A stretch of DNA of 20,097 nt from a virus, in IMG/VR virus record IMGVR_UViG_3300042884_000705, positions 1-20,097 of that record, one strand, 5' to 3'. Under the pieces are notes generated by a model. That model saw nothing but the letters and a program-made list of their open reading frames with translations, did no database searches and was not told where the DNA came from. Below are positions 1 to 8,286 of this stretch, piece after piece (within the stretch, counting starts at the first letter, position 1; each line of letters opens with the position of its first letter). The translations under genes and the position numbers were made by a program.

Positions 1-3000
1 GGCGGCAAAGTGCTTGTCGGCCACGTCTTTCTTCGCAATATCAACCTCATTGGCGTCAGCATCAAACAGCGCCGCCGTCACCTTGGCGCGGTCTCCCTTC
101 TGCTTTTCCAGGGTCCGCAAGGTCAGTTCCACCCGCTTGTCCATGCGGGTTTGCCAGTTATTCATCCGCCGCTCGGCCGCAATGCCCTGATCCACCAGGG
201 CCGCAACCGCAGGCCACTTCCGAAACATGCGGCTGGGCCTGCGCAGGACAGACAGAAACGGCGTCAGATCACGCATCTGCGCAGGATCGTCCACCACAAC
301 GCCAGGCGGCAGCCGAGTGTCGGCCCAATTCTCCTTGACCGCCGCGACGTTGCGCTCCCGCATACCCGCCGCCGCCGCGCGCACCGCCCGCCCGGCTGGG
401 CGACCAAACAGCCGCATGAACAAAGCGGGGTCGAAGGGGTTGGCGTAGAGGGAGCCGGTGCCGTCATCGGTCTCCGGGGGCGTCGCAGGCGATGGCGGCT
501 TCAGGTGCTTTTCCCGAATGAAAAACCCGCCGTCCTTGGGGAAGGTGTAGAGGTCCAGCGCGCGGGCTTGCGCGCGCGTGATGCCCTTGCGGACAATGCC
601 GCGCAGCACCTTCCCGCTCTGCGTTGTGTGTTCAATGATTGGCTCGTCGCCGCGCTCAACAGTGCCAGCGGGCTCTTGGGCCGGGGTACGCACTCCATTG
701 GCAGGCGGCGTAATCGGGGCACCATAGGCGGGGGGCGGCGGGGTGCGCGCGGCAGGGACCGCAAGCTGCCGCAGCGGCATCTCCATGTTCTCAATTCTGT
801 CGAAAAGCGCGGTGACGTTGGAGGCGTCCGAAATATCCACGGTTTGCGTGGTGCCAATCCGGCCGGCTGCCGCCTTGTCTAATTGCTTGTCAATGATGAC
901 GATGCGCGTGGCGACGTTGGTGCCGGCTCGCTCAAAGGTTGAAGTCGGAAGGCGAATGTCGGCGACGAAGTGTAGATCCGGGTTCGTGCTGCGCCCCTTA
1001 TCATCGTTGGCGTAGAGCCACTGGTCAAACCGCTTGTCTGCCGCAGGGCCGATCGGGATCAAGGCCACGATACGGCCGCCACCCCGCAGGTGATTCGCAG
1101 CCTTGGCCAGATGCTCTATGGCCATTTTACCGCCCACGCCAAAAGGTGGGTTCATCACGATCACGTCATACTTATTGACGATGTTGAGGTCTTCAAAGGT
1201 GGAGGAAAGAAGCCGGTCGCTCTCCGGGTTCATCACCATTGCCAGCCTGGCGCGCAGCGCGTTGGACGGCTCAATGGCGGTGCGGGCGAGGTTGTCACCA
1301 AACCAGCGGGCAATGGCCCCGTGGCCTGCCGAGGGCTCCAGAACCGCATTGCCGCCGCGAGCGTCAGCCCAGGCCACCATGCGCTGCCCCAGGGGCTCAG
1401 GGGTGGCAAAGTAGTCATTGCCCTCCTGCGATTTGGTGCGGGGGTTTTTTTTCTGCTGCCCGAAGTAGTAGGCTTTGGCCCGGCCGAACGGCGTGGGGGA
1501 CGCATTGCTAAGGCGGTCGGCTTCCTTGCCGCCAATGCCCTCGCCTTCGTGCCCTGGCTCAAAATTGTCGCCGGCCTCAAACGCCCCGATAAAGGCGTCC
1601 TTCAGCGCCCGCGCATCCTCGCCCATGCCCAGGTTTTCGGCGGTGGATGCCCGCGCGGAAATCTTGCTGGCAAAAGCAAACCGCTCCCAATTCGTGCCGG
1701 TGTTCATGTAGCGCAGGATTGCGTTGGATGCCTGGCCCGTGCGGTAGGCGCGGCCTTCCTGCTGGATTGCGGTCGTGGGCGCGACCGGCAACCCGAGGTT
1801 CAGGATGACGCGCTGATACTTTCCCGTCGTGTCGTGGCCGCTCCAGCCGGCGTTCTTGGCTGACTGCACCAGCAAGACAACCGACCCGGATGCGTCGTCT
1901 TGGAACTTGGCATAGCGCGCCAAGTTGTCCCGCTGCTTTTCGTCGCCGTTGACGATAAGCGCCTTGCCTCCAAAAGCTTTCCGATACGCCCGCACCGGGG
2001 CTTCCATGTTGCTGAAGGCAGCCCCGATAAGATCGGCAAATTCCGTGCGAAACTTGCCGAGAACCAAACGAGCCTTGGCCGCGTCGTCGCCCACCCTCGA
2101 ACCAACAAACCGCTTTTCGTCAACATCAAAAGGATTGAAGCCGCCGCCGCCCTTGAAATCGTGAAACACGATCACCTTGCGGCCCAGGTCCAAATGCTTC
2201 TGGACAATTGGGATGGACGCCTCGGTCTTGATTGCCTCTAGGAAATACATGCGGGCGAGGTAGTCAAATTGCTCGTCAATCGTGGCTTCCAGCGTACCCC
2301 AGTGCATGTTTTTACTGTCGGCGCGTCGGCTTTCACTGATCCACGAAAGCGCCTCATCCACCCGGTTGCCGATACGCGAGTCAATGAGAACAAACCGCCT
2401 GTCGTAGTCAGCGTCCACGTCTAGCTTGCGCGCGGACAGTGAACCCTCGCGGCGCAGCCATGTGTTGAACTCCCGCTGCATCAGGCCGCGGTCCACAAGC
2501 GGCCCGGGCTCGTTCAGCTTGCCCGTCTTCATGCTATAGCCGAAATGCTCAATCATGAACCGCTGCTGCGCGGACGGCGTGTTGTAGCCGCTGCTTTCAG
2601 GCTCGGCGCCATACTCAAAGAGATAGCCCTGCGCCCATTCAATGTTCTTCTCGTAGGCAAAGGGCGTGGCGCTCAGGAACATAGCGCGGGGGCGCGCGGC
2701 CCCTTGCGATTCCATCACGCGCCGTTTTACCGCAGCCCGGCTTTCAGCCAGGCGGCTTGTGAGCGGGTCCAGCTTTGCCTCAACCCGCCCAATCTGTGCT
2801 GCCAGTTGGCCAGTCCGGTCTCCAGCCACGCTCACTTGCCTACGAAGCACTCTCAATTCTTCAGCAAGCGCAAAGACTTCACCAACCGCCTCTTGGTTTT
2901 CCATGTCATGCAGGGCCAAGGCGCCGTCTGGATGGAGCGTCAGCGCCCGAAGCGCGGAAAGCGCATTGGTCACAGACGCATCACCGCTTTTCATCAGGTT

Positions 3001-6000
3001 GTGCGCTTCATCCGCGACAACGAGATCCCAAGAGCGCGAGGCCAGCGCGGCGTTCTGGCCGAAATTGGCGTAAGTGGTGACAACAATGCCCTTGCCGGCA
3101 TCTTTGGTGTCAGCAAGGCGCGTAATCTTCAGGCCAAGATCGCCGCCCGAGTTTGCCCAATCGCTGCCTACTTTTTCGTCGGGCACGACGATCAGGATGT
3201 TGGTCTTTCCCTGGCGCTGGAACCGCTTAATGACGCCCAAGCCGGTGTAGGTTTTACCAGTGCCGGTGCCGTTGGTGAACAGCATCCCGTACCCGTCCGG
3301 CTTTGCAAACCGATCCTCGGTTTTGGCTACATCCTCCTGCTGGCCGGGCAAAAGCACCGGCAGCGTGGCGCGGATGTTGGTGATGCCAGGCTGTAGCGCG
3401 AGGCTTTCAGCCGCGCGCTGCGCGGCTAAGGCTTGGTCGCGGCTAAGGTTCCCCGAAGGGCTCGGCGCAACTGCACCGCCTGCCGCCGATCCAGACGATA
3501 CTCCATCGAGGCCAAGGAGATCGCCTCGGCCATCGAAATCACCTCCGGCAGCGATGCCCTCAAGGCTCCCTGCTGGGTTTCCAGCAGAAAACCCGAAATC
3601 GCCTCGTTCTCCACCAGCAGGGGGGCTACCAACCGATGAGCCAGAATCACCCGGTTGTCCTGCGTCGAGCGTTCCGCCAGCGCGTCCACCCGCGCCACTG
3701 CCGCTTCCATTTCCTCCGGTGGGGTTGCCATCACTTCCCGCCAGAACGGATTGAGCGGCTGGCTGGCCGCCACCTGATTCCAGATTTCCCAGGGTGCTTG
3801 CTGCATTGCTGCCTCCTACTTCGTTGCTTTGGGCGCCCGCCCCGTCGCTAGATCCTGCGCCCGCTGGACCAGAAGGGGGTCGTCCTCCGCTCGGGCCTGG
3901 CGGAGCATTGCCGTCGCCAGCATCCGTTCCGCCACCAAAGAGGTCGGGGCCGCCGCCTTTTCGGCTGCGGGCTTCTTCGTCGCGTCGCTTGATCCGCTCA
4001 TTGATGATCCTCAGAATTTGGGCGCCGCCGATCTCTGGATCGCCCAGAAGATTTACGCCCGGCTGACTTTTGCGCGCCTGCTCGGCATAATCCAAGAGAA
4101 TTGTTGCTACGGCATCGCGGCCACGGGGCTTCGTGTATTCCGTGTCGCGGAACATCGTGGCCAGAAAGCCAAGCGTAAGCGGCGAGGCTTGATCCTCGAA
4201 AATGCTGGCTTGCCCAATTAGGGAAGCGATGCGCGTGTTGCTGTCGCGAGCCCGGCGCACGATGCTGACTGCGGCCAGCAGGTCCGGCGTGATGTCCACA
4301 CCCGGCGCGATCAAGCCTGCGTCGGCCTCCCGGCGCATGAGCGCCCAGGTCCCCGCCACGTCCAGCAGCGCGCCACCGATGGCTTTGATGTCGCTGTCGC
4401 CGGCCTCAAACACCTCGGCAACAAGCGTGCCGTCGCGATAGGCCGCCTGGAGCAATGCGGCTTCAATGCGGCGCCGGCCGTCCTGCGTGATGGCGCCGTC
4501 GCCGTCCATCATTGCGGCGCGGTCTGCCTTGGCCACGGCTTCATTCATGAAGGCCACAACAAAGGGCCGGTTTTCGGCGGAAGTGACGCTTCCGCCCCGG
4601 AATTTCTCAATGGCCGAGCCCAGCGCCTGGGCATCGGCAGCGGCGCGCTCAACGGGCGACATAGCGAGTGTGGTGCGCTCGTTGCTGGCCCTGGTGTATT
4701 CGGCCCGAGCCGCGTCATCCATCTTGGTCTGCCGCACACGCACCAGAACGGGGGCCTGCATGTCGGCCGTGTCGTAGCCCTGGCCTTCCAGCCATTCGCG
4801 GTACGCCTGGGCCGATGGCATGTCTTCTTCGTAGGCGCGGCGCAGCGCCATGGTGCGCCCGTTGCCGCTTTCCACCACACCTTCCGGCGAGACAACAGGG
4901 GCGCCGTCTGCCGTTGAGGGGTTTTCGCCCAACAGCGCCGGGTTTAGTCCCTGCGCCATGCTGGCAACCTGCGCCATTGACGCGGCCCGTGTGCGGTCGC
5001 GCGGCTGCAATTCCTGGGGATAGTCGGGATTGGGCCGCCCGTTGTCGTCGTTTGACACGACCAGCGCGGACACGTCGTGCACCTCATAGGTGACTTGAAT
5101 GGGTATGCCGGATGGCGTGAAAATTGTCGCGCGGCGGTCGCTGCCTGCGGTCTCGGGATCACGTTCCGCCACAATGCGCGTCGGCGCGGCATTCGGTACG
5201 GCGGTCGGCGCTTCCGGCTGGTCGAGGGTGGAAAAGTCAAAGGCGCGAACAGCCGCCCGATCATCCATCAGGTCGGCCACATCATCCGCAACCTCGGCAC
5301 TCGTGGCAAGGTAAATCGGTTTCAGGGTGGGCTTCACCGCCTCGGGGTCAAGGCCCATCTCAACCGCATCGGCCAGCACCGCCCGCGCCCAGGCGCGAAA
5401 CTTCACCACGCCTTCCTCAATATAAATCAGGCCGAGTTCAATGCCAGCAGCCAGCACCGAGGGATCAATCCCCGCGTTGACGCGCTGGCCGGACGCCTTG
5501 ATGGCCGCGGCAAACTTGGCTTTGGCCGCTGCCTTGCGGGCCTCAAGGTCGGAGGCCGGGGCAGTTGGCGCCGCTGGCTGCGCCGGAGTTGTGACATCGG
5601 GCGCCGGACTTGTGACATTCTCCCCATCGGAACCCGTTGGATTGCCTGGGGTCGGCGCAGGAGTTGTGACATTTGGGGCAGGGGGCTGTGACGTAGAGGG
5701 CCGATCCTGGGGCGCCTCGGGCTCCGGCTGGGGCGCTGGCGCTTGGGGTTGGCTGGTTTGCCCCAAAGAATGCCGCACCGCCGCAGCGATGGCCTGCTCT
5801 CTTGTCCAAGACTCAAGCCTGCTCTGCACCGCAATGGCGCCCGATCCGCCTGATCCGGCGTAATTAACATACCAATTCTCGGGAAATGACTTGAACGGCG
5901 GATCGCTGGCGAGTTCGTAGGTTGTTCCTGATGGTGTCGCCGCAACGGCGCCAGCCTCAAGGGCTGCGGCAAGTTCTTCGCTGCTGCGCACCTGGCGCGG

Positions 6001-8286
6001 GGGCTGGCTGGGTTCTTCTCCTGCGTCTTGCTCAGGCGCCGAAGGTGCCTCGGCTTCCTGGGCAACGCGCCGCAGGGCCGCGTCAACCGACAAGCCTTCT
6101 TCCGCCATGTAGCCCTGCACCGCAGCAACATCGCCTGGCGCCAAGGTGATGTTCAGGCGCCGTGCCGCAGTTTCAATGCGGCGCGTGATGGCGTCGGGCG
6201 CGGGCGCGGGCGTGGCGGGTGGCTGGGGCGGTTCTGGCGCAGGCTGTGAGGGCGCCTCACTCTGCGGCGGCGTGGGTGCTGCCTCTGGCGCAGCCGGGGC
6301 GCTTGGCGGCGTTTCGGGCGCGGGCGGCGCCTGGTTGGGCTGCGGATAGATGCCGCCAACCACGCCTTCCTGATTCTGCGCCGCGAGCCCGGTCATAAGC
6401 GCCGCGAAATCCTGCTCGGTCGCCGGCGGGCGCATGAGCTGCGTGACCGGCATACCATTCGGGTCATAGACCTGAATGATCTGGTCCTCGTCGTCCACGG
6501 TCCAGCCTGGCGGCAGGCTGCCCGCAATGCGCTGAACCCCGGCCGCGCGATCGGCCTCTGACTGCGCTTCTTCCTGCGCCGCCTGCTGCTCCTGCAGCTC
6601 GGGCGTAGGCGTCGGGGTGTTCAGCGCTTCCTCAAGCGAAGGCCGGGTGTTATTCGGCAGAACCGTGGGGACCGCCGCCCCGCCTGGGGGAGACGCCAAG
6701 GGAAGTGTTGCCCCAGGCGGCGGCGGCGGCTCGCCCGATGGGGGCGCCGCGGGCGGAACCGCAGCCGCGCCGGTCCCACCAGCCGAACCGGGAACAGGCT
6801 GTGCAAGGCCAGTGAAATCAGCCTCGCCCAAAAACCGATCAATGCCGCGCTCGGGCTGCGCGCCTAGCTGCGCTTCTACCGCCGGCGGCAGGCTTGGCGC
6901 TCCGGCTGTGGTCATGTTCGGCACCGGCTCAATGGCCTGGGCGCCGGTTCTGCCCATGTTGCGCGCTTCTTGCAGCGTGGCGATTGCCGTGGTGCCAACC
7001 GCTTGCGGCCCGGCACCGAGCATTTCCATCAAGACCTCGGAAGGCGTCACCTTGCCCTCGGCGAAGATGCCCGCAGCCGCCTCGCCCGCGCCCTCAAAGC
7101 CGATTTCAATACCCATGTTCCGCAGGCCGGTCATGGTATTGCGGAACACCCCAGCGCCAGGCCGCAGCCCCCGCGCTAGGCCAAGGCTTGCCGTGTCGGC
7201 CAGAGCAGGCCCAAACCCGCCCCGCTGTGCCGCCTGAAATTCCTTGCGCATGGCGCCCATGTTGCCACGCAGCCAAGCCTCAACGGCCGCGCCATCTTCG
7301 CCATCCACGCCTTCAGACGCCATCCGCTTTGAAAGCGCCTCAACAAAGCGCGGCCCCACATCGGCCGCATAGCCACCCAGGAATTGACCAGTGAGCATCC
7401 CAGGGGCGCGCGCCACCACACCGCCCGCCAGCGCGCCAACAAGCCCCGGGATCTGCGACGGCAGGCTTTCCACGGATGCTTGCTGCACAATACCGCCGAA
7501 ATCGCTGCTCAGAATGCGCCAGGCGTCCCTGTACCGCCCGCTGTCCACCGCCTCCGCAAGAGCCTGAACATTGGGGTTCCGCAAAAACTCCTGCTGGTCG
7601 GCGCGCGACTTGATGAACGATTGGATGGCGCCGCCCAAAGCGCGCTCAGTACGATCGCGCAAACCCTGCCGCTGATCCGGCGACAATTCGGCCCAAAGCG
7701 GCGCTTCCGCAGGGGTCGCCCCGCCATCGGCTCTATCGGCCAAGGCGAGGGCTTCCATCATGCTTTTGGCGCCGGTTAGGGATAGGCCCTGCTTGAATGT
7801 CTCCCAGCCCGAACGAAGCTGATCCCCCGCCCGCTCAAGCCCGGTCGCCTCGCCATAGGTGATGCGCTGCCCGCCAAAGGATTCGGGGCTATCCATTTGA
7901 AGCGGGCGCGCGGTTTCTGCCAGCAATTCATGGCCGCGATCAGGGACAAAGCCCAGGCGAGCAATGCCCTCATTGATTCGCGTCCCGCGCAATGAAAGCG
8001 GGGTTTGCTCCACCTGCGGGCCTGGGTATTCCTCAATCTGCCGCTGCGCTGGTTCGGCCTGCGGCGGCAAGGGGAGATCCGGCGCCGGGCGTTGCGGCGG
8101 CGGTTCAGCCTCGGGCAATGACATGAAGCTGGATGGCGTGAAGCCAATCAGTCCCGCGCCGCTCGCGCGTGGCGTGGCTATGCCTCGCTCTTTGTCAAGA
8201 AACGCTTTGGCCGCACGGGCAGCCGCGCGCTCGTCGCCAGCCTCAATCTCAAGGATGCGCCCGTCAGGGAGTTCTACTTCAATCAA
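1..8286 (-). CDS. Giant polyvalent phage protein (ParB-like, SF2 helicase and adenine methyltransferase), C-terminus outside window
   Basis: I checked every in-phase triplet from 8286 to 1 and found no stop: 2,762 codons, still open at the edge. The start is TTG at 8286; an in-frame TGA lies at 8307-8305, GGGGAG sits upstream, and the codon overlaps the previous gene's stop by 4 bases. Layout by residue: 1-35 short domain (IEVELPDGRILEIE); about 270-410 Gly/Ala-rich hydrophobic stretch like internal virion proteins; 430-1000 mostly Pro/Ala/Gln linkers; about 1050-1260 ddrB-like ParB domain (RDR 1096, ESGNGR near 1140); helical region to about 1425; Gly/Ser linker 1430-1620; SF2/SNF2-like helicase with GTGTGKT 1673-1679, DEAH 1759-1762, SATP 1872-1875 and QEGRAYRTGQ 2176-2185; class I N6-adenine methyltransferase with EPSAGHG 2317-2323 and NPPF 2379-2382; then GGFFIREKHL near 2590 and an SLYANPFDP-type polyvalent region. 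Known relatives: P1 DarB and Bcep22-type giant virion proteins. I infer an injected anti-restriction/DNA-processing protein. Confidence 0.93.
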   Translation of the reverse strand, partial: MIEVELPDGRILEIEAGDERAAARAAKAFLDKERGIATPRASGAGLIGFTPSSFMSLPEAEPPPQRPAPDLPLPPQAEPAQRQIEEYPGPQVEQTPLSLRGTRINEGIARLGFVPDRGHELLAETARPLQMDSPESFGGQRITYGEATGLERAGDQLRSGWETFKQGLSLTGAKSMMEALALADRADGGATPAEAPLWAELSPDQRQGLRDRTERALGGAIQSFIKSRADQQEFLRNPNVQALAEAVDSGRYRDAWRILSSDFGGIVQQASVESLPSQIPGLVGALAGGVVARAPGMLTGQFLGGYAADVGPRFVEALSKRMASEGVDGEDGAAVEAWLRGNMGAMRKEFQAAQRGGFGPALADTASLGLARGLRPGAGVFRNTMTGLRNMGIEIGFEGAGEAAAGIFAEGKVTPSEVLMEMLGAGPQAVGTTAIATLQEARNMGRTGAQAIEPVPNMTTAGAPSLPPAVEAQLGAQPERGIDRFLGEADFTGLAQPVPGSAGGTGAAAVPPAAPPSGEPPPPPGATLPLASPPGGAAVPTVLPNNTRPSLEEALNTPTPTPELQEQQAAQEEAQSEADRAAGVQRIAGSLPPGWTVDDEDQIIQVYDPNGMPVTQLMRPPATEQDFAALMTGLAAQNQEGVVGGIYPQPNQAPPAPETPPSAPAAPEAAPTPPQSEAPSQPAPEPPQPPATPAPAPDAITRRIETAARRLNITLAPGDVAAVQGYMAEEGLSVDAALRRVAQEAEAPSAPEQDAGEEPSQPPRQVRSSEELAAALEAGAVAATPSGTTYELASDPPFKSFPENWYVNYAGSGGSGAIAVQSRLESWTREQAIAAAVRHSLGQTSQPQAPAPQPEPEAPQDRPSTSQPPAPNVTTPAPTPGNPTGSDGENVTSPAPDVTTPAQPAAPTAPASDLEARKAAAKAKFAAAIKASGQRVNAGIDPSVLAAGIELGLIYIEEGVVKFRAWARAVLADAVEMGLDPEAVKPTLKPIYLATSAEVADDVADLMDDRAAVRAFDFSTLDQPEAPTAVPNAAPTRIVAERDPETAGSDRRATIFTPSGIPIQVTYEVHDVSALVVSNDDNGRPNPDYPQELQPRDRTRAASMAQVASMAQGLNPALLGENPSTADGAPVVSPEGVVESGNGRTMALRRAYEEDMPSAQAYREWLEGQGYDTADMQAPVLVRVRQTKMDDAARAEYTRASNERTTLAMSPVERAAADAQALGSAIEKFRGGSVTSAENRPFVVAFMNEAVAKADRAAMMDGDGAITQDGRRRIEAALLQAAYRDGTLVAEVFEAGDSDIKAIGGALLDVAGTWALMRREADAGLIAPGVDITPDLLAAVSIVRRARDSNTRIASLIGQASIFEDQASPLTLGFLATMFRDTEYTKPRGRDAVATILLDYAEQARKSQPGVNLLGDPEIGGAQILRIINERIKRRDEEARSRKGGGPDLFGGGTDAGDGNAPPGPSGGRPPSGPAGAGSSDGAGAQSNEVGGSNAASTLGNLESGGGQPAAQSVLAGSDGNPTGGNGSGSGAGGRAGGTLDAGQPGDSGSSVGSPPAGGERGDFGFSAGNPAGSLEGIAAGGDFDGRGDLLGLDGVSSGSAAGGAVAPSPSGNLSRDQALAAQRAAESLALQPGITNIRATLPVLLPGQQEDVAKTEDRFAKPDGYGMLFTNGTGTGKTYTGLGVIKRFQRQGKTNILIVVPDEKVGSDWANSGGDLGLKITRLADTKDAGKGIVVTTYANFGQNAALASRSWDLVVADEAHNLMKSGDASVTNALSALRALTLHPDGALALHDMENQEAVGEVFALAEELRVLRRQVSVAGDRTGQLAAQIGRVEAKLDPLTSRLAESRAAVKRRVMESQGAARPRAMFLSATPFAYEKNIEWAQGYLFEYGAEPESSGYNTPSAQQRFMIEHFGYSMKTGKLNEPGPLVDRGLMQREFNTWLRREGSLSARKLDVDADYDRRFVLIDSRIGNRVDEALSWISESRRADSKNMHWGTLEATIDEQFDYLARMYFLEAIKTEASIPIVQKHLDLGRKVIVFHDFKGGGGFNPFDVDEKRFVGSRVGDDAAKARLVLGKFRTEFADLIGAAFSNMEAPVRAYRKAFGGKALIVNGDEKQRDNLARYAKFQDDASGSVVLLVQSAKNAGWSGHDTTGKYQRVILNLGLPVAPTTAIQQEGRAYRTGQASNAILRYMNTGTNWERFAFASKISARASTAENLGMGEDARALKDAFIGAFEAGDNFEPGHEGEGIGGKEADRLSNASPTPFGRAKAYYFGQQKKNPRTKSQEGNDYFATPEPLGQRMVAWADARGGNAVLEPSAGHGAIARWFGDNLARTAIEPSNALRARLAMVMNPESDRLLSSTFEDLNIVNKYDVIVMNPPFGVGGKMAIEHLAKAANHLRGGGRIVALIPIGPAADKRFDQWLYANDDKGRSTNPDLHFVADIRLPTSTFERAGTNVATRIVIIDKQLDKAAAGRIGTTQTVDISDASNVTALFDRIENMEMPLRQLAVPAARTPPPPAYGAPITPPANGVRTPAQEPAGTVERGDEPIIEHTTQSGKVLRGIVRKGITRAQARALDLYTFPKDGGFFIREKHLKPPSPATPPETDDGTGSLYANPFDPALFMRLFGRPAGRAVRAAAAGMRERNVAAVKENWADTRLPPGVVVDDPAQMRDLTPFLSVLRRPSRMFRKWPAVAALVDQGIAAERRMNNWQTRMDKRVELTLRTLEKQKGDRAKVTAALFDADANEVDIAKKDVADKHFAA
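3426..3806 (-). CDS. Nested small gene 2 (126 aa), +1 frame inside the giant gene, unknown function
   Basis: ATG at 3806 is preceded by TAGGAGG with a five-base spacer, about as good a ribosome site as any in the window. The 126-residue product has balanced, protein-like composition: MQQAPWEIWNQVAASQPLNP at the N-terminus, then Glu/Ala/Leu-rich helices (VAPLLVENEAISGFLLETQ; LPEVISMAEAISLASMEY; LDRRQAVQLRRALRG). This differs from ordinary shadow frames in this window, which are Arg/Pro/Trp-rich. Codon third positions are dominated by G/C (gtg, gcg, ctg, gag, cag). The overlapping giant frame is low-complexity Gly/Ser here, which is what a shadow of this gene would look like. I see no signal peptide or transmembrane helix. 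It may act with nested gene 1. I do not recognise the family; a structural or chaperone role is only a guess from context. Confidence 0.65.
   Translation of the reverse strand: MQQAPWEIWNQVAASQPLNPFWREVMATPPEEMEAAVARVDALAERSTQDNRVILAHRLVAPLLVENEAISGFLLETQQGALRASLPEVISMAEAISLASMEYRLDRRQAVQLRRALRGTLAATKP
3812..3818 (-). promoter_or_regulatory. Ribosome binding site of nested gene 2, overlapping the stop of nested gene 1
   Basis: The minus strand reads TAGGAGG followed by CAGCA and ATG. The TAG at the start is the stop codon of nested gene 1, so a terminating ribosome lies directly on the Shine-Dalgarno of the next gene, an arrangement typical of translational coupling. Confidence 0.7.
3816..4001 (-). 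CDS. Nested small gene 1 (61 aa), +1 frame inside the giant gene, unknown function
   Basis: This 61-codon frame starts at ATG 4001, with AGGA six bases upstream (inside TGAGGAT), and ends at TAG 3818-3816. It lies wholly within the Gly/Ser linker region of the giant gene, in the +1 frame. The product begins MSGSSDATKKPAAEK and continues as a basic/acidic, probably helical peptide (MLATAMLRQARAEDDPLLVQ), with no membrane segment or domain I recognise. Codons end mostly in G or C, as expected for a used frame here. Its stop codon forms part of the Shine-Dalgarno of the following nested gene, suggesting translational coupling. It could still be a chance frame: it is short, and no homologue was tested. 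Confidence 0.5.
   Translation of the reverse strand: MSGSSDATKKPAAEKAAAPTSLVAERMLATAMLRQARAEDDPLLVQRAQDLATGRAPKATK
4007..4012 (-). promoter_or_regulatory. Ribosome binding site of nested gene 1
   Basis: The minus strand reads GAGGAT, then CATCA and ATG at 4001; the AGGA core is six bases from the start. In the giant frame this stretch encodes part of an Arg/Ile/Glu helix, so the match is not forced by a Gly-Gly codon pair. Confidence 0.5.
5589..5672 (-). repeat. Three-copy V-T-[TS]-P-A repeat in a linker of the giant protein
   Basis: The plus-strand nonamer TTGTGACAT occurs at 5589, 5610 and 5664. The spacings are multiples of three, so the giant protein carries VTTPA, VTSPA and VTTPA within a Pro/Ala/Thr-rich stretch. 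It is best read as an expanded disordered linker; the in-frame spacing argues against an operator. Confidence 0.55.

Follow-up and report, generated by a model that had tools for sequence, protein, structure and literature searches.

The window, the whole stretch of DNA analysed, is a virus contig of 20,097 bases. A giant gene on its minus strand runs off the contig end and combines a DdrB-like ParB domain, an SF2/SNF2-like helicase and an adenine methyltransferase in a single chain. By this domain content, the host gene is a DarB-type polyvalent methylase-helicase. The genes upstream of it in the window include ones for a head closure protein, an SU10-type adaptor and a tail fibre, which places the giant gene in a late, virion-type block. 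Two open reading frames, ORF1 and ORF2, are nested within it on the same strand but in the +1 frame.

1 to 8286, minus strand: giant host gene, a polyvalent methylase-helicase, open at the contig end and at least 2762 aa long
4732 to 5106, minus strand: DdrB-like ParB domain of the giant, residues 1061-1185 (Pfam PF18763, E 2.5e-33)
2956 to 3354, minus strand: ResIII, the N-terminal part of the helicase of the giant, residues 1645-1777 (Pfam PF04851, E 6e-11)
865 to 1449, minus strand: adenine methyltransferase region of the giant, residues 2280-2474 (several PHROG DNA methyltransferase families)
3426 to 3804, minus strand: Gly/Ser-rich linker of the giant, the bases shared with ORF2; open in 53 of 53 clusters
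3426 to 3806, minus strand: ORF2, 126 aa, from ATG 3806 to TAG 3426, in the +1 frame of the giant
3816 to 4001, minus strand: ORF1, 61 aa, from ATG 4001 to TAG 3816, in the same frame as ORF2; probable accessory ORF
3812 to 3818, minus strand: Shine-Dalgarno sequence TAGGAGG for ORF2; its TAG doubles as the stop of ORF1
4008 to 4012, minus strand: GAGGA, the Shine-Dalgarno-like element of ORF1; GAGG elements are similarly placed before the ORF1 of a subclade of relatives

The first-pass annotation had described ORF1 and ORF2 as a tandem pair, and the coordinates and stops it gave are exact, with both frames at +1 relative to the open frame from 8286 to 1. The signals it reported are also in place: TAGGAGG lies at 3818 to 3812, five bases ahead of the ORF2 ATG and with its TAG serving as the stop of ORF1, and AGGA lies at 4011 to 4008, six bases ahead of the ORF1 ATG. 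Third codon positions are rich in G/C as it had claimed, with a GC3 of 75% in ORF2.

The length of the nested ORFs carries little weight. When the codons of the giant are shuffled among synonymous positions such that the giant protein is preserved, 89% of shuffles contain a +1-frame ORF that starts with ATG and reaches 126 aa or more, the longest such ORF averages 185 aa, and ORFs of 61 aa or more number 6.7 on average. We therefore rejected any length-based significance of the nested ORFs. As shuffles yield ORFs this long, a single genome could not decide whether ORF2 is real, and the conclusion that ORF2 is far beyond chance comes only from the comparative evidence. The longest +1-frame ATG ORF of the giant in the window is another one, a 234-aa ORF at 5427-6131 on the minus strand. 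Its length is near the mean longest ORF of the shuffles, and it is probably a compositional shadow.

Searches by tblastn found ORF2 in eight phage records, which represent six distinct phages (Serratia Parlo, Pseudomonas Skulduggery, Klebsiella ZX1, Ruegeria 45A6, Vibrio D274 and 1.232.O; E 2e-13 to 3e-7). In all six, ORF2 lies inside the giant CDS in a constant relative frame; it has an ATG of its own, and the giant frame is open. In Skulduggery (NC_070827) the homologue occupies 33577-33963. ORF2 is annotated in none of the eight records and in no other record checked, presumably since complete overlaps are avoided by gene callers. A profile scan revealed the same arrangement at 37 IMG/VR loci and four bacterial-contig loci, and a Comamonas plasmid record also carries ORF2. 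Single-sequence scans of IMG/VR were too narrow (P0001 gave no match and L090 only itself), and the alignment of the most divergent members is too variable for scanning. Besides the six named phages, about 100 metagenomic or prophage sequences contain a homologue. Stops and frameshifts in the +1 frame, the observation that the first-pass annotation had set against its own proposal, were sought among these relatives; all are open, with their own ATG and usually a Shine-Dalgarno sequence.

With ASCERTAINMENT, without ORF2 as query, loci were gathered by the helicase-methylase profile alone. ORF2 is present in all six loci of the first collection of this kind and in all 80 loci (L055-L134) of the next scan, the 86 records checked in that round being the 80 new loci and the re-counted six. 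A scan seeded with divergent members gave ORF2 in 73 further locus records, mostly from contigs already sampled. In the collection of named phages, the records with at least 80% coverage of the methylase-helicase dyad (8/8) are the same eight that carry ORF2. No dyad without ORF2 was found among all dyad loci examined, and phage, IMG/VR and bacterial-contig searches found no stand-alone copy of ORF2 outside a dyad gene. Contig redundancy makes these locus counts larger than the number of independent phages, which is why we also give cluster counts. The first-pass annotation had regarded a lack of stand-alone homologues as adverse; such homologues are indeed lacking, but the nested position is conserved throughout, so their absence means that ORF2 is always nested.

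The hosts of the methylase-helicase family include Alpha-, Beta- and Gammaproteobacteria. In two loci (L032 and L041) just about 0.5 and 1.5 kb of the host gene, respectively, precede ORF2, which assigns ORF2 to the methylase-helicase gene rather than to the variable N-terminal modules. Pairwise ORF2 distances correlate with those of the helicase at r 0.72 and with those of an exchangeable upstream domain at r 0.36. Two loci (L029 and L036) that are close to two others (L017 and L025) by ORF2 and helicase have a giant that differs just upstream and lack ORF1; this divergence points to recombinational exchange of the modules adjoining ORF2.

Comparison of the two frames was based on 99 distinct ORF2 proteins, which form 53 clusters below 60% identity. 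That all 99 sequences share the arrangement led us to reject a frameshift or sequencing artefact. The start codon is ATG in 99 of 99, and a Shine-Dalgarno match of at least 4 nt precedes 93% of these starts, as against 24-28% of control ATGs. Conversely, synonymous shuffling of the nested codons introduces a mean of 1.8 stops into the giant frame and leaves it open in 21% of cases; across ORF2 it is open in every one of the 53 clusters (summed log10 P about -55). The first-pass annotation had proposed comparing constraint in the two frames, and between related pairs the substitutions switch to nested-frame third positions within the overlap. They fall on giant codon positions 1, 2 and 3 at 51, 28 and 21% inside ORF2, whereas outside the overlap they are distributed at 26, 20 and 54% upstream and 23, 17 and 60% downstream. 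Since giant codon position 1 is the third codon position of ORF2, the excess at this position reflects a shift to ORF2 third positions. Similarity in the nested frame exceeds the giant-preserving null by z 10-31 in the four pairs tested. Codon usage within the overlap is normal in the nested frame only: mean log relative codon usage is +0.11 for the nested frame and -0.19 for the giant frame, the latter being near the unread third frame at -0.23, while the giant elsewhere reaches +0.24.

These comparisons show both frames across ORF2 to be under selection. Judged from the sequences, ORF2 is an overprinted gene, with two selected frames, its own start codon and a ribosome-binding site, and very probably a protein-coding gene in its own right, lying out of frame inside a phage methylase-helicase gene. 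The view that the ORFs are chance shadows of a GC-rich gene, with the +1 frame held open by codon bias and yielding no product, draws on the 89% of shuffles that produce ORFs of this length and on the marginal similarity of the ORF1 in the window to that of the subclade. For ORF2 it is refuted by the nested-frame similarity, the substitution switch, the invariant ATG and the excess of Shine-Dalgarno matches, and we regard it as extremely improbable. In an alternative reading, programmed frameshifting would carry ribosomes out of the giant frame and let them terminate at the nested stop, so that a truncated giant would end in an ORF2-like sequence. This would fit the observation that in many loci no stop interrupts the nested frame for some codons ahead of the ATG. 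The alternative is very unlikely given that the ATG opens the conserved block in all 99 proteins with an enriched Shine-Dalgarno sequence, that 42 of the 99 have an in-frame stop within 15 codons upstream, and that stop codons abut the ORF2 ATG in the group of loci around L017.

That group belongs to a subclade (L017, L018, L020, L025-L028, L022, L034 and L019) in which an ORF1 of 51-53 aa lies directly upstream of ORF2, with its stop abutting the ORF2 ATG and GAGG before its own ATG. The similarity of these ORF1 sequences is above the giant-preserving null (z 3.8-5.1), and their codon-position pattern is intermediate, as expected with both frames constrained. The ORF1 in the window has the same place and Shine-Dalgarno context, and its similarity reaches a z of about 2 (P 0.03-0.05); a profile built without the window sequence fails to find it, and its AlphaFold model has a pLDDT of 68. 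We consider it a probable, though not proven, second, accessory coupled gene. The nested two-gene operon proposed by the first-pass annotation is thus partly supported: strongly in its ORF2 part, and marginally in the window for ORF1. Coupling between the two finds support in the subclade, where ORF1 is selected and its stop abuts the ORF2 start, but ORF1 is absent from most relatives.

A second and different overprinted family, ORF1b, occurs upstream of ORF2 in the same frame as ORF2 (L111:893-1091, L048:8712-8913, L044:5065-5293, L115:1217-1391, L132:1487-1661 and L119:1340-1550). It is characterized by the motif ..GLDG.DS.SPR.EI...I..L...P...., with leave-one-out E values of 5e-14 to 9e-7 and a z of 7-13 above the giant-preserving null; ORF1b had no database match.

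AlphaFold, run on an alignment of 30 sequences, predicts ORF2 to form seven helices (pLDDT 89.9, pTM 0.83). Conserved features are an N-terminal MxQ.P..(I/V)WN.IA, followed by PLLxE..AI and LPE. Cysteine is nearly absent, with none in 84 of the 99 distinct proteins. Nothing convincing matched the ORF2 family in the libraries tried, including Pfam, PHROGs and NCBIfam; hits with E values near 0.003-0.02, bearing unrelated names and involving one to three ORF2 members, were dismissed. Foldseek with the ORF2 model found no significant match in PDB or BFVD (best E about 1). The best VIA-align Z was 5.8, a score to be read with the possibility that helical bundles share merely a common arrangement.

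A description of ORF2 was not found in the open literature searched. The nearest published arrangement that we found is the ShiLan-type insertion, in which hidden out-of-frame HNH endonucleases of mobile character and disjunct distribution lie within actinobacteriophage DNA methylases (PMC11855218). As with ORF2, the hidden ORF occupies another frame of a methylase, in one case a helicase-methylase, and the host frame stays open (PMC11855218). This shared architecture would allow ORF2 to be a mobile out-of-frame insertion like these homing endonucleases. The ShiLan-type ORFs, however, are nucleases with a GTG start just inside the insert and a disjunct distribution (PMC11855218), whereas ORF2 is a fixed helical protein with an ATG, and usually a Shine-Dalgarno sequence, in every member examined. 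The lack of a nuclease or HNH match in Pfam, PHROGs and NCBIfam, the all-helical model of a mostly cysteine-free protein and the absence of an empty site from every dyad gene examined leave hardly any probability for such an insertion.

In the preferred reading, that of an independent nested gene, the nested frame encodes a conserved protein whose predicted structure is a seven-helix globule. That frame has its own ATG and, in most cases, a Shine-Dalgarno sequence, and ribosomes would start internally on the late mRNA of the giant. Across ORF2 the giant frame contains 17% Gly and nearly no aromatic residues, which suits a disordered linker. Selection keeps the host frame free of stops as a flexible linker, which allows the downstream helicase-methylase to be made. 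Within the overlap, the host frame has the codon usage of a frame that is not read, and this suggests that the ORF2 frame is primary and that the linker was fitted around it, codon usage being a measure of present constraint and no proof of which frame is older. A stronger form of this idea, which we consider rather doubtful, would have the ORF2 frame as ancestral, with the methylase-helicase giants arising by reading through it, ORF2 as an obligatory hidden subunit gene throughout this family of polyvalent proteins, and linkers as nurseries of further overprinted genes such as ORF1 and ORF1b.

The product of ORF2 could plausibly be a dedicated small partner of the helicase-methylase module (an assembly factor, chaperone or subunit), a role drawn wholly from genomic linkage, with nesting itself forcing co-inheritance. 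By analogy with P1 DarB, a partner made from the same message would perhaps help the giant to be kept inactive, packaged or ejected. We consider it about as likely that ORF2 is a real gene with a function unrelated to the methylase-helicase, its product acting as, for instance, a host-takeover factor or minor virion protein, and that the linker is merely tolerant; the unrelated overprinted ORF1 and ORF1b sit in the same linkers. Against this, ORF2 is fixed in every dyad gene seen, never found elsewhere, and tracks the helicase and not the neighbouring modules, an argument that physical linkage weakens.

The known relatives of the host gene offer partial parallels. A survey of polyvalent proteins describes a methylase-helicase dyad with P1 DarB as its archetype (PMC5512222). 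The giant in the window resembles DarB-type proteins in its DdrB-like ParB domain, SNF2-type helicase and adenine methyltransferase (PMC5512222); its helicase precedes the methylase, whereas the archetype is described as methylase then helicase (PMC5512222). A term search of the survey text returned no mention of a nested out-of-frame gene or overlapping frames (PMC5512222). In P1, Ulx is listed as an aid to DarB localization; for Hdf and DarA, the listed role is in Dar incorporation (PMC9024508). Ulx, Hdf, DarA, DdrA and DdrB, some of them small, serve the capsid loading of DarB-type proteins (PMC9024508). These accessories are separate genes, unlike ORF2, and the likeness is a proposed functional analogy only. 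The ORF2 profile showed no similarity to the P1 accessory regions (best E about 2), and the ORF1 and ORF1b profiles had no match there. P1 iddB, described as internal to ddrB, is like ORF2 a gene inside a polyvalent antirestriction gene (PMC10695390). In contrast to ORF2, iddB is annotated on the strand opposite to ddrB (antisense), and it is without profile similarity to ORF2.

Rz1 is a lysis lipoprotein, whereas ORF2 encodes a helical protein inside a DNA-modification gene. The embedded spanins Rz/Rz1 are nonetheless like ORF2 in having a second same-strand gene in another frame with its own start (PMC6139136).

ORF2 would be a small phage gene new to annotation, with one DNA stretch giving two selected proteins. 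It occurs in every examined member of a phage methylase-helicase family and is missing from all annotations and family libraries checked. It offers a clean natural example of dual coding over a long stretch, in which one product is folded and the other is a linker, and it suggests a testable missing component in the process by which giant antirestriction proteins are loaded, held inactive or ejected. Searches for hidden genes in the linkers of other polyvalent phage proteins are implied.

At the start of the giant in the window, the TTGA at 8283-8286 on the minus strand combines its first listed start, TTG, with the TGA stop of an upstream 429-aa ORF, and this overlap suggests translational coupling from that ORF into the giant.
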